NCBI GenBank assembly: GCA_016278485.1
Contig: JADQBT010000014.1
Location: forward strand, 62,001-126,000
Direction of reading: 5' to 3'
Source of the DNA: Halanaerobiales bacterium
GTDB taxonomy: Bacteria > Bacillota > Halanaerobiia > Halanaerobiales > Halanaerobiaceae
Length of the DNA: 64,000 bases
Below the pieces are notes generated by a model that had not been told where the DNA came from, searched no databases, and was given only the letters and a program-made list of their open reading frames with translations. Each line of letters opens with the position of its first letter. Position 1 is the first letter of the stretch. Both the position numbers and the translations under genes were made by a program. Shown piece after piece: positions 20,033-24,327 of this stretch.

Positions 20033-20473
20033 TCATTTATGCATACGATTCTTTATTAAGATAGCTTTATTACCTTGCTTATTATACTTTATTTCATCAA
20101 ATGTTTGTTTTGCCAAAAAAATACCTCTACCCCTTTCAGAATAAAGTTGATTTAGTTCTTGGTTTGCCGCTTTATCAAACTTCGAAAGTGTATTTTGCCA
20201 ATCAAAGCCAGAGCCTTGATCAACAATTTCTACTTTGATAATTTCTTTTCTAATGATAATTTTTATTGAAACAGTTTTAGCCGGATCCAGTTTATTACCA
20301 TGCTCTACAGCATTACTTATCATTTCATGAATACCAATAAATAAAAAATCAGTATCCCCTGTATAATACTTATCTAAAAATAAAGCCATCTCTTTTTCAA
20401 CTTGTGATAACCTTAAATTACTATCTAGATTAATCTTATATATATCGATCATATCTTCAATCTCTTCAGGCAT
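20033..20473 (-). CDS. Anti-sigma-factor kinase-like protein (RsbW/SpoIIAB type ATPase)
   Basis: A HATPase_c protein of about 146 residues, of the serine-kinase anti-sigma class. Motifs are 'GIHEMISNAVEHGNKLDP' (N box, Mg and ATP contacts), 'EIVDQGSGFDW' (G1 box) and 'SERGRGIFLAKQ' (lid and G2 box). In known systems it binds a sigma factor and phosphorylates its RsbV-type partner, which is encoded 28 bases upstream. AGGAGG seven bases before the ATG at 20473 sets the start; a longer frame from a TTG lacks such a site. No sigma factor gene is nearby, so the target is unknown. Confidence 0.88.
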   Translation of the reverse strand: MPEEIEDMIDIYKINLDSNLRLSQVEKEMALFLDKYYTGDTDFLFIGIHEMISNAVEHGNKLDPAKTVSIKIIIRKEIIKVEIVDQGSGFDWQNTLSKFDKAANQELNQLYSERGRGIFLAKQTFDEIKYNKQGNKAILIKNRMHK

Positions 20474-20501
20474 TGGCTTTCCTCCTTGCCAGAATAGAAC
20501 A

Positions 20502-20816
20502 TTATTCCATTCCCTCAATTTCTATTACCTTATTTAAATGAATCATCTTAAACATTTTTTTTACATAATCACTTTTAATATTTACTAATTTCAATTTACC
20601 ATCAGTTTCTTTTAATTTTTTATGAAATAATAATAATTTGCCTAAACCAGAACTATCTATACTACTAATTTTACCAAAATCAATAACTACATTAGTAAAA
20701 CCATCTCTATAAAATTCCATGAGATCTTCTTTTAACGTTTGGGAATTTGAAATATCAATTCTCCCTTCCGGATAAACAGTAACATCTATATCATTATATT
20801 TTTTGGATCTCAACAT
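20502..20816 (-). CDS. Anti-anti-sigma factor-like STAS protein (RsbV type)
   Basis: A 104-residue STAS-domain protein. 'VVIDFGKISSIDSSGLGKLLLFHKKL' (given as two adjoining motifs near residues 44-70) contains the serine normally phosphorylated by the RsbW-type kinase. Unphosphorylated protein would trap the kinase and free its client. It leads a two-gene unit with that kinase. Partner-switching is well established for the family; the output here, whether sigma factor or other protein, is not encoded in the window. Confidence 0.9.
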   Translation of the reverse strand: MLRSKKYNDIDVTVYPEGRIDISNSQTLKEDLMEFYRDGFTNVVIDFGKISSIDSSGLGKLLLFHKKLKETDGKLKLVNIKSDYVKKMFKMIHLNKVIEIEGME

Positions 20817-20956: not shown

Positions 20957-20993
20957 TAAATTAATTAATTTTTTGAAAGGGGATTTTCTCAAA

Positions 20994-21401
20994 ATGCAGC
21001 ATAATAGTTTAGAAACAGCCAAAGCAGCCATAAAAATGTCAATATCAAGTCGCCAGGAAGAAAAGGATCTCAAAAAAGCCTTTAAAAAAAGTGATATAAA
21101 TACTGCTGCTGTAGATTTTGGTGGTGAATTTAATAAATCCGTTCCAACTATTATTGAAAGAGCTGTCATAGCAGCTAAAAGGGAAGGTATCATTACAGAG
21201 TCACATGTTGAACAGGGTGCCGTTGCCGGTGCAGCCCATGATGCAATAACACAAATAATGCCAAGAACGCTTGGCCTAAATGTGGGCGGAAAAGTTGGAA
21301 TAGCTAGAAGTGGTGAACATCTTGTCGTTGCAGTTTTCTTTGGTGTTGGTATGTTAAATTTAAATGAAGTAACGATTGGACTAAGCCACCGCTCATTTTA
21401 A
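20994..21401 (+). CDS. hutP: HutP-family RNA-binding antiterminator
   Basis: A 135-residue protein that matches HutP over its length. In Bacillus HutP is a hexamer that, with L-histidine and Mg2+, binds UAG triplets in the hut leader and stops terminator formation. Here 'ESHVEQGAVAGAAHDAI' near residue 68 and the near-invariant end 'GKVGIARSGEHLVVAVFFG' (as adjoining motifs), 'LNEVTIGLSHRSF' hold the histidines expected for metal and ligand binding. AAAGGGG before the ATG at 20994 sets the start; an upstream in-frame TTG lacks a site. No histidine-use gene is present. The next unit is an ABC transporter with an attenuator leader, the likely target. Confidence 0.92.
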   Translation: MQHNSLETAKAAIKMSISSRQEEKDLKKAFKKSDINTAAVDFGGEFNKSVPTIIERAVIAAKREGIITESHVEQGAVAGAAHDAITQIMPRTLGLNVGGKVGIARSGEHLVVAVFFGVGMLNLNEVTIGLSHRSF

Positions 21402-21471: not shown

Positions 21472-21500
21472 TTGACAATTCTTTGTTTTAAGTATATAAT
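21472..21500 (+). promoter_or_regulatory. Consensus promoter of the ABC transporter operon
   Basis: TTGACA (21472-21477), exactly 17 bases, then TATAAT (21495-21500). Both boxes are perfect, so initiation should be strong and control likely falls on the leader that follows. Confidence 0.9.
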
Positions 21501-21519
21501 AATAAAAAATTAAATAACT

Positions 21520-21543
21520 GGTAGCATGGTAATACGGTAGGAG
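21520..21543 (+). repeat. Three 8-base GGTA repeats in the leader
   Basis: GGTAGCAT, GGTAATAC and GGTAGGAG follow one another without gaps. The first four bases are identical each time. In RNA this gives UAG, UAA and UAG at 8-base spacing, which suits a multimeric RNA-binding protein. Confidence 0.7.
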
Positions 21544-21603
21544 TAAGATAGAGGGTTAGCTATATCCATTTTTTACGGGATATCTATACCCATTTTTAAG
21601 TAA

Positions 21604-21630
21604 ACACTCCTGGTAGGGGTGTTTTTTTTA
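21604..21630 (+). terminator. Leader terminator before the ABC transporter genes
   Basis: ACACTCC (21604-21610) pairs with GGGGTGT (21616-21622) around the loop TGGTA, followed by a run of eight T. It lies 35 bases before the first structural gene, so it works as an attenuator. Confidence 0.88.
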
Positions 21631-21664
21631 TTTTCCATGACCAGTTGAAAGGGGAAATTGTATT

Positions 21665-22642
21665 ATGGTAAAGAAGTTCATTGTTCGTAGTAGGCTCATT
21701 CTCTTATTGATGGTTTTTATGTTAATTATGTCAGTCCCTGTTCTCGGAGCTGATCTTCTCCAAATTGGTATTTCACAGTTTGTTGAACATCCAGCTCTAG
21801 ATGCAGCCAGAGAAGGTTTTAAAGCTGGTCTTGCAGAAGCAGGTTTTCTAGAAAATGAAAATGTTGAATTTATTGTAGAAAGTGCCCAGGCAGATTTTGC
21901 AACTGCACAGACGATTGCGCAGAAATTCAGACAAAAAAATCTTGATCTAATTCTTGCAATTGCAACTCCTTCAGCGCAGACTGTCGCAAATTTAATCAAA
22001 ACTACACCAGTATTAATCACTGCTGTTACTGATCCTGTCGAGGCTGGAATCGTTGATAATATGGAAAAACCAGGCAAAAATATTACAGGTACTACTGATA
22101 TGAATCCTGTCAAAAGACAATTACAACTTATAAAACAATTTATTCCAGATGTGAAAACAGTCGGTATCTTATATAATGCAGGAGAAGTCAACTCTGTTGT
22201 TCAGGTAGATATTGCTAAAGAAGCTGCTACTGAACTCGGAATTGAATTAAAAGAAGCTACAGTTACTAATACAAGTGAAGTTGCACTGGCCACTTCAACA
22301 TTAGTTAATAAAGTAGATGCGATTTATGTGCCAACTGATAATATTATTGTTTCTGCCATGCCTTCTGTCTTAAAGGTTGCTAATCAAAATAATATTCCAG
22401 TTTTTGGCTCTGAAAATAGTCAAGTAGAAAAAGGCGCAATCGCAACACTTGGTTTAGATTATTTCTTACTCGGTAAACAAACAGGTAAAATGGCAGCTGA
22501 AGTATTAAATGGTAGTTCCCCGGCCGAAATGAGTATTCAAGGCTCGTCTGATTTAAAATTATATATCAACCAAACAGCAGCAAACAACTTGAGTTTAGAA
22601 ATCCCGGCGGACCTACTGGAAAAAGCAGATAAAATATACTAA
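21665..22642 (+). CDS. ABC transporter substrate-binding protein, ABC_sub_bind (TrpX-like) family
   Basis: A 325-residue periplasmic binding protein of the family that includes the tryptophan-type TrpX proteins. A signal peptide covers about residues 1-28 and ends at 'SVPVLGAD', a signal peptidase I site with no lipobox cysteine. Family motifs include 'QFVEHPALDAAREGFKAGL' near 37, 'TPVLITAVTDPVEAGIV' near 116, 'ITGTTDMNPV' near 140, and 'AIYVPTDNIIVSAMP' near 216. The ligand may be an aromatic amino acid or another amino acid. If HutP controls the operon, histidine or a related compound is a candidate; that is inference. Permease and ATPase genes follow at short spacing. Confidence 0.88.
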   Translation: MVKKFIVRSRLILLLMVFMLIMSVPVLGADLLQIGISQFVEHPALDAAREGFKAGLAEAGFLENENVEFIVESAQADFATAQTIAQKFRQKNLDLILAIATPSAQTVANLIKTTPVLITAVTDPVEAGIVDNMEKPGKNITGTTDMNPVKRQLQLIKQFIPDVKTVGILYNAGEVNSVVQVDIAKEAATELGIELKEATVTNTSEVALATSTLVNKVDAIYVPTDNIIVSAMPSVLKVANQNNIPVFGSENSQVEKGAIATLGLDYFLLGKQTGKMAAEVLNGSSPAEMSIQGSSDLKLYINQTAANNLSLEIPADLLEKADKIY

Positions 22643-22657
22643 TTGAGTTGGTGAATT

Positions 22658-23524
22658 ATGAATTTGATATTCGCAATTACTTCACTTGAACAAGGACTTG
22701 TTTTTGGAATAATGGCACTTGGAGTTTATATAACATTTCGTATTCTTGATTTTGCAGATCTAACTGTGGACGGTAGTCTCCCTCTGGGAGCTGCCGTATC
22801 TGCAAAGCTAATTAGTTCAGGCATGAATCCTATCTTGTCACTTGTTTTTGCTCTAATTGCTGGTGGATTAGCTGGGTCTATTACTGGTTTTTTGCATACA
22901 CGTTTAAAAATAGCTCCCTTGCTTTCAGGTATTTTGACTATGACTTCACTTTATTCGATTAATTTAAGAATTATGGGAAGACCTAACATACCATTAATTA
23001 GTCAACCAAATGTATTTTCTCTTTTTGAACAACTGGGTATTAATTACCTCTGGAGTACTATAATTTTACTTTTAATTATTATTTTATTAGTTAAAATTTT
23101 ACTTGATAGTTTTTTGAAAACTCAATTGGGTTTTGCCTTAAGAGCAACAGGTGATAATCCTCAAATGATTAGAAGCATGGGAATTAGTACAAATACAATG
23201 AAAATGTTTGGACTTATCTTATCTAATAGCCTGGTTGCCTTATCGGGTGGTTTGGTAGCTCAATACCAGGGATTTGCAGATGTAAGTATGGGAGTTGGAA
23301 CAATTGTAGCTGGGCTAGCTTCAGTTATAATTGGTGAAGTTATTTTTGGTGAAAAATCTATCTTTATAATTACAGCCGGTGTTATAGCTGGGTCAATTTT
23401 ATATAGATTTAGTATTTCACTTGCTTTAAATCTGGGCTTTGCTGCCTCAGATTTAAAATTACTAACTTCTCTACTAGTAATAGTTTTTCTTTCAACTCCA
23501 CGTATTAAAAAAATTATGAGGTGA
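22658..23524 (+). CDS. ABC transporter permease (TrpY-like)
   Basis: A 288-residue integral membrane protein with about eight or nine helices, of the branched-chain-amino-acid type permease fold. 'GIMALGVYITFRILDFADLTVDGSLPLGAAV' (adjoining motifs near residues 17-47) and 'GFALRATGDNPQMIRSMGI' near 157 are the usual contact-loop motifs of this subfamily. It follows the binding-protein gene by 15 bases and precedes the ATPase by 5, forming one operon. Confidence 0.9.
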   Translation: MNLIFAITSLEQGLVFGIMALGVYITFRILDFADLTVDGSLPLGAAVSAKLISSGMNPILSLVFALIAGGLAGSITGFLHTRLKIAPLLSGILTMTSLYSINLRIMGRPNIPLISQPNVFSLFEQLGINYLWSTIILLLIIILLVKILLDSFLKTQLGFALRATGDNPQMIRSMGISTNTMKMFGLILSNSLVALSGGLVAQYQGFADVSMGVGTIVAGLASVIIGEVIFGEKSIFIITAGVIAGSILYRFSISLALNLGFAASDLKLLTSLLVIVFLSTPRIKKIMR

Positions 23525-23529
23525 TTTAA

Positions 23530-24327
23530 ATGTTAGAGATTAATAATCTTTCAAAGATTTTTTATAAAGGGACTTATAATGAAAATAAAGCTCTAACTGA
23601 GCTTAGTCTTAAAATTAATGAAGGTGACTTCATTACAATTGTTGGTAGTAATGGTGCAGGGAAATCTACCCTGTTAAATTCTATTGCTGGTGTTTTCTCC
23701 ATTGAGTCTGGTTCGATATTACTTGATGGTCAGGAAATATCTAATCAGGCAGAACATGTAAGAGCAAAATCAATTGGTAGGGTTTTTCAAAACCCTTTAG
23801 CTGGAACTTCTCCAGAAATGACTATTGAAGAAAATCTTTCCCTGGCCTTAGCCAAATCTGAAAGTCTTTCATTACGCTGGGGATTGTCAAATTATAAAAG
23901 AAAGATAATGAAAAAAAAGTTGAGTAAACTAGATATTGGCTTAGAAAACCGTTTAACAACTAAAGTAAAGTTGCTTTCAGGTGGACAGCGCCAATCACTT
24001 ACTCTTTTAATGGCAACATTAACTAATCCCAGTCTCTTATTGTTAGATGAGCATACAGCAGCTTTAGATCCAGCAACTGTTATTAAAATTAAAAACCTTA
24101 CTAATGAATTAATATCAGAGAATAATATTACAACTCTCATGGTTACTCACAACATGGAGGATGCTATTAAAATGGGAAATAGATTGATTATGATGGATAA
24201 AGGACAGATTATTTATGATATAAAAGAAACAGATAAAAAAGACTTAACAGTAGAAAAATTGCATAAAATGTTTGAAATTAAACATGGTAGTAAATTTACT
24301 GATGATCGTATGCTTTTAACTGTTTAA
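23530..24327 (+). CDS. ABC transporter ATP-binding protein (TrpZ-like)
   Basis: A 265-residue ATPase that powers the transporter. Walker A 'VGSNGAGKST' near residue 37, the signature 'LLSGGQRQSLTLLMA' near 147, Walker B 'LLLLDEHTAALDP' near 171 and the switch 'MVTHNMEDA' near 204 are all intact. A 20-residue basic stretch before the signature ('NYKRKIMKKKLSKL') is longer than in most ABC proteins. A hairpin terminator follows at 24361. Confidence 0.92.
   Translation: MLEINNLSKIFYKGTYNENKALTELSLKINEGDFITIVGSNGAGKSTLLNSIAGVFSIESGSILLDGQEISNQAEHVRAKSIGRVFQNPLAGTSPEMTIEENLSLALAKSESLSLRWGLSNYKRKIMKKKLSKLDIGLENRLTTKVKLLSGGQRQSLTLLMATLTNPSLLLLDEHTAALDPATVIKIKNLTNELISENNITTLMVTHNMEDAIKMGNRLIMMDKGQIIYDIKETDKKDLTVEKLHKMFEIKHGSKFTDDRMLLTV

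Follow-up and report, generated by a model that had tools for sequence, protein, structure and literature searches.

A periodic GGUA(R) array in the leader of a transporter operon, and a HutP-fold protein as its proposed reader in the control of aromatic amino-acid genes

The sites of Bacillus HutP are made of triplets placed at 7-nt steps. The HutP hexamer reads clusters of three NAG, and TRAP wraps 11 G/UAG triplets that lie 2-3 nt apart (PMC7430163). In the window, by which is meant the whole 64-kb stretch of DNA that was analysed, the leader of an ABC transporter operon carries GGTA at 21520, 21528 and 21536, and a re-reading of the coordinates found them exactly where the first-pass annotation had placed them, with the triplets TAG (21522), TAA (21530) and TAG (21538) in register. 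Two more UAG triplets that had been added to this series, at 21549 and 21557, are present in the sequence. They are out of register, the first 11 bases past the third unit and the second 8 further, and they were dropped as array units because no fourth or fifth unit stands in register and conservation across 50 distinct leaders stops at three. A fourth GGTA (21612) is also out of register and is found in the terminator loop. The window has a single occurrence of GGTA-N4-GGTA-N4-GGTA and 100 dinucleotide shuffles of it have none, and the 2.86-Mb genome likewise has a single match to a slightly longer, very similar pattern even with two mismatches allowed. The triple GGTA array is a functional sequence. 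It starts about 20 bases 3' of the sigma-A -10 box (21495-21500) and precedes the intrinsic terminator by about 60 bases, and a gene of the HutP family, whose subfamily is called HutP-a here, lies directly upstream on the same strand (Table 1).

Table 1. Coordinates in the window of the leader elements and of the genes on either side
Feature	Position	Strand	Basis
HutP-family gene (HutP-a), likely binder	20994..21401	+	PF09021; fold; conserved N-terminus
Leader promoter, TTGACA / 17 nt / TATAAT	21472..21500	+	sigma-A consensus match 12/12
Array of three 8-nt units (GGTAGCAT, GGTAATAC, GGTAGGAG), proposed HutP-a site	21520..21543	+	uniqueness in window and genome; conservation in orthologues and 399 genomes
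AGGAGT, 5' strand of the antiterminator; overlap with third unit	21539..21544	+	pairs with 21606-21611 in nascent-RNA fold; covariation
Hairpin in the spacer from array to terminator, variable among relatives	21553..21591	+	predicted fold
Intrinsic terminator, 10-pair stem and U run	21602..21629	+	5' arm with ACTCCT (21606-21611), the antiterminator 3' strand
ACCAGTT (complement of AACTGGT, 21516-21522), then Shine-Dalgarno GAAAGGGG	21640..21654	+	duplex energy against shuffles
Aromatic amino-acid substrate-binding protein (TrpX-like)	21665..22642	+	PF04392; closest solved relatives
ABC permease	22658..23524	+	PF02653; synteny
ABC ATPase	23530..24327	+	PF00005; synteny

The order of hutP, leader and transporter is kept in about 20 relatives, and so is the triple repeat, which ends in GGTAGGAG or GGTAGGGG; in one of these leaders (L023) the first unit is AGTA. 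Among the orthologous leaders compared none had kept the terminator and lost the periodic repeats, the case that the first-pass annotation had singled out as speaking against its proposal. The conserved unit is GGUAR among the relatives of the window and broader elsewhere, GGNAG. In 23 non-redundant transporter leaders the pairs of GGTA number 43 at lag 8 and 18 at lag 16, with no more than four at each other lag in the range 4-20 and none at lags 5, 6, 7, 9, 11 and 13. Among 78 regions that lie upstream of hutP in other lineages the counts are 19 at lag 8, 11 at lag 16 and at most five at the others, and the 8-base periodicity is thus seen in the leaders of two independent gene arrangements. 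In these other lineages the HutP-a subfamily heads operons that continue with the chorismate mutase gene aroH and then hisC, aroF, tyrA and aroA, or with trpE and trpD. Moreover, in the related transporter operons of Clostridium the repeats also span the Shine-Dalgarno sequence and the start codon (AGGAGGATGGTAGCATGGTAGG).

The RNA pattern GGTAGNAYGGTANNAYGGTAG was searched in 399 genomes with one mismatch allowed, and the reversed pattern served as control. It gave 92 matches in 75 genomes, against 12 for the reversed pattern. Sixty-one matching loci, all from outside the family of the window, were read, and 45 of them precede aromatic amino-acid genes. The first gene downstream encodes DAHP synthase at 25 loci, an aromatic binding protein at eight, AroH at four and an aminotransferase at three, and it is tyrA, pheA, aroK, hutP or a gene resembling those of tryptophanase and tyrosine phenol-lyase (L151) at one locus each. 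The remaining loci comprise a DctP transporter (eight), a sodium symporter (two), an AMP-ligase (one) and five that are unclear or due to chance. The DctP-type binding protein of a TRAP transporter that follows the triple repeat (L150, L155, L179, L180, L181, L201, L203 and L205) may have an aromatic acid or amino acid as its substrate. Of 50 distinct arrays that were aligned, 43 have three units and no more, and nothing beyond the three is conserved; the search pattern required three units and permitted a fourth. This number matches one trimeric face of the HutP hexamer and not the eleven triplets of TRAP.

HutP-a matches PF09021 with an E value of 5.6e-46 over profile positions 2-128 of 128. 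Its start is set at 20994, where the conserved N-terminus begins, the other candidate being an in-frame TTG at 20973. The AlphaFold2 model has a mean pLDDT of 91.5, and all eleven Foldseek matches at E <0.001 are HutP structures, with TM scores up to 0.81 and the RNA-bound structure 1wmq among them; phmmer and a profile search against the PDB sequences had missed HutP, which was found by the fold search only. HutP-a (E at most 1e-35) is encoded in 70 of the 75 genomes with the motif against 153 of the 324 others, with a p value (9e-15) that overstates independence because the genomes are related to each other. The five exceptions are a genome whose HutP-a gene is split by a frameshift (G107), one that is 80% complete (G177) and three in which the matches do not precede aromatic genes (G059, G080, G209). 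Many of the 399 genomes encode HutP-a and have no match to the strict pattern.

Two other HutP paralogues are found in most relatives. One of about 265 aa (L038, at G000:C22:11976-12344, with relatives L040 and L042) has, in front of its HutP domain, an N-terminal stretch that by eye resembles paired CBS domains. The other, of about 165 aa (L037, at G000:C9:144911-145297 on the minus strand, also L039 and L041), keeps a histidine at the position of H138 of Bacillus subtilis HutP and has none at H73 or H77. Beside hutP, on the opposite strand, the stretch 20033-20816 of the window (minus strand) holds a STAS anti-sigma-factor antagonist gene and, after it, one that resembles a gene for a kinase of the RsbW/SpoIIAB type.

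In the leader, AGGAGU continues the third repeat and pairs with ACUCCU in the 5' arm of the terminator. A transcript still lacking the 3' arm is predicted to take the antiterminator fold, and when the repeats are blocked in folding the spacer hairpin and the terminator alone remain. In a set of 60 leaders, pairing between the last repeat and the terminator arm of the same leader has a mean of -10.1 kcal/mol against -8.8 for permuted combinations (sd 0.25), an effect diluted by a few leaders in which the script chose the wrong terminator. None of 10000 permutations was as good, either in this set or in a thinned subset of 32 leaders, about one per family, and these permutation statistics are inflated by kinship among the genomes. 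The whole-leader fold shows no unusually high stability. At equilibrium the terminator is stable with the antiterminator present or absent, so the switch must be kinetic. The spacer hairpin varies in both length and sequence across the orthologues. The loop and 3' arm of the terminator (21612-21621) hold GGTAGGGGTG, which nearly copies the third repeat, so that it competes with that repeat for ACUCC; the relatives do not conserve it.

The first repeat, AACUGGU, can also pair with ACCAGUU beside the Shine-Dalgarno sequence, with a cognate duplex of -16.1 against a shuffled mean of -8.0 and only 2 of 500 shuffles as good. This pairing is strong in the family of the window and in one locus outside it (L077) and weak elsewhere, and for this reason it was rejected as a general feature. 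It is perhaps a second, translational layer of control that is limited to this lineage.

These results point to a HutP-fold, TRAP-like attenuator that would sense an aromatic amino acid through the three GGUA(R) units, a reading to which a probability of roughly 0.7 is given. The array, its conservation, its aromatic regulon, its co-occurrence with HutP-a and the covarying alternative pairing come directly from the computation, and from them we infer the binding, the ligand, the stoichiometry and the sign. The three units at 8-nt steps would be the RNA-binding site of the HutP-a made from the adjacent upstream gene. An aromatic amino acid, with tyrosine slightly favoured, would charge the HutP-a hexamer, and one trimeric face of the hexamer would then grip the three NAG-like units. 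Bound HutP-a would mask the last unit and keep AGGAGU from ACUCCU, so that the terminator can form and shut the transporter operon off. If the amino acid ran short, the last repeat would pair with the 5' arm of the terminator and allow readthrough. In some lineages the array would also control translation, by overlapping the Shine-Dalgarno sequence or start codon or by pairing nearby.

The identity of the ligand is suggested by the regulon and by the transporter. The aromatic regulon and the absence of the histidine ligands from HutP-a argue for an aromatic amino acid as the natural ligand. The closest solved relatives of the binding protein are CD0873 (6hni), 3lkv and 3lft, and these hold tyrosine, phenylalanine and tryptophan (PMC6816091). 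Glu-263 and Tyr-279 of CD0873 are said to set its specificity (PMC6816091), and in an alignment with the solved relatives the window protein has Glu and Tyr at these positions, which favours tyrosine as the substrate of the transporter. Tyrosine is also the favoured ligand of HutP-a on the strength of these residues, and tryptophan and phenylalanine are candidates too. The genome of the window, which is 96% complete, contains aroC and has neither tyrA nor trpB above the cutoff, so that it probably relies on import for tyrosine and tryptophan. This genome, with no trpB above the cutoff, does encode TRAP (MtrB, PF02081, at G000:C22:150649-150852). The catabolic or unclear loci (L151, the DctP transporters and the symporters) are awkward for a simple end-product repression, and they count against the proposed reading together with the unremarkable stability of the leader fold, the equilibrium stability of the terminator and the genomes that encode HutP-a and have no strict match.

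The sign of the control is the point on which an alternative survives best. Ligand-loaded HutP-a could instead act as an antiterminator or inducer and turn uptake or catabolism on, as known HutP is an antiterminator (PMC7430163, PMC8934654), B. subtilis HutP acting so with histidine, and as some of the loci are transporters or the tryptophanase/tyrosine phenol-lyase-like gene. However, the array overlaps the antiterminator strand and not the terminator, so that binding is expected to lead to termination in the manner of TRAP. Moreover, the repeats of Clostridium lie over the ribosome-binding site and start codon, so that binding there should also repress, and the targets are mostly biosynthetic, DAHP synthase foremost. 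Induction is accordingly considered unlikely. The layout predicts that binding leads to termination or to blocked translation, with a logic like that of TRAP and opposite to HutP antitermination, and this amends the first-pass proposal of a HutP-type site.

Much less probable is a HutP site of the canonical kind, answering to histidine but differently spaced, that governs histidine uptake, which would account for the adjacent HutP-family gene and for the NAG-like triplets. B. subtilis HutP holds its metal and L-histidine through H73, H77 and H138, and in an alignment with its chain none of the three is conserved in HutP-a. In addition, hutH is absent from the genome of the window and from 12 of the 13 other genomes of its family, the targets are aromatic amino-acid genes and the relatives of the transporter bind Tyr, Phe and Trp. 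Control by histidine or of hut genes was rejected on the missing hutH, the missing metal ligands and the aromatic regulon. HutP-a and the HutP of B. subtilis are deep paralogues, and HutP-a is without the metal-histidine ligands of the latter. It belongs to the HutP family by sequence and fold, yet it is not the canonical histidine HutP: its ligand residues, its gene context and the spacing of its proposed site were each tested, and none agreed with one. The first-pass proposal, a multimer site of the HutP type whose spacers are five bases long, is well supported in its general form, by the adjacent gene, the co-occurrence across genomes and the exactly three NAG-like units, and fails where it would imply a HutP of the histidine type or histidine genes.

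Equally improbable is a protein-free riboswitch or structured leader in which the repeats serve base pairing alone. Alternative terminator and antiterminator pairings are indeed present, but it is a linear run of three repeats that has been conserved, the spacer being variable, as is usual where a multimer binds single-stranded RNA, and the motif co-occurs with HutP-a. The Rfam covariance models, T-box included, gave no match in the window, and in 11 relative loci nothing fell on the repeats, the sole match being an unrelated minus-strand c-di-GMP-I riboswitch (L083). A known Rfam element was thus rejected as the explanation.

TRAP, which the first-pass annotation had offered as a possible recogniser, is the least credible reader of all and was rejected on phylogenetic distribution and repeat number: it is encoded in 48 of 61 relatives, the genome of the window included, it recognises G/UAG repeats (PMC7430163) and trp genes are among the targets in some lineages, but it needs about 11 triplets 2-3 nt apart (PMC7430163) where here there are three at 8 nt, five genomes without TRAP keep the array (G018, G021, G024, G027 and G030), and in families f3-f5 and f7 nearly all genomes have TRAP but lack both HutP-a and the motif.

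Held a little less firmly than the attenuator at this locus, and still considered probable, is the reading of a widespread system of the Bacillota in which a HutP-fold hexamer would sense an aromatic amino acid, read three GGNAG at 8-nt steps and shut off DAHP synthase, the genes of the chorismate branches and aromatic transporters by attenuation and by masking of start sites. Such a system would be a TRAP-like device for aromatic amino acids that evolved a second time, independently, and that often occurs in genomes with TRAP as well. If this is true, a large HutP subfamily, named only HutP in the family libraries searched, gains both a function and an RNA target, and the fold of the histidine antiterminator has been re-used with another ligand, another spacing and probably another sign. 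It would also predict the control of aroF and related genes in many Clostridia and their relatives, and provide a natural parallel to TRAP for the way in which ring-shaped proteins read periodic RNA. A search of the open-licence literature, with most subscription journals outside its coverage, found no prior description of such a system.

Compared with HutP and the hut operon of B. subtilis, the locus shares the protein family, the fold, the three NAG-like units near a terminator and the regulator gene beside its target. It differs in its 8-nt steps in place of 7-nt ones (lag 7 is empty in the transporter leaders), in the metal-histidine ligands, which are not conserved, in its aromatic regulon, in the predicted termination and in being found in a genome without hut genes. 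The resemblance to TRAP (MtrB) at the trp operons lies in a ligand-bound ring protein on periodic repeats that overlap an antiterminator, suggested here by layout and covariation, in the blocking of ribosome-binding sites and in an aromatic amino-acid regulon, whereas the fold is unrelated, three units 8 nt apart stand against 11 G/UAG and the distribution is not that of TRAP. With the T-box-controlled trpXYZ of Streptococcus suis (PMC9382623) the locus has in common the transporter family and a leader terminator that answers to an aromatic amino acid; the leader of the window differs in having no T-box, and protein-binding repeats would, as proposed, take the place of tRNA sensing.
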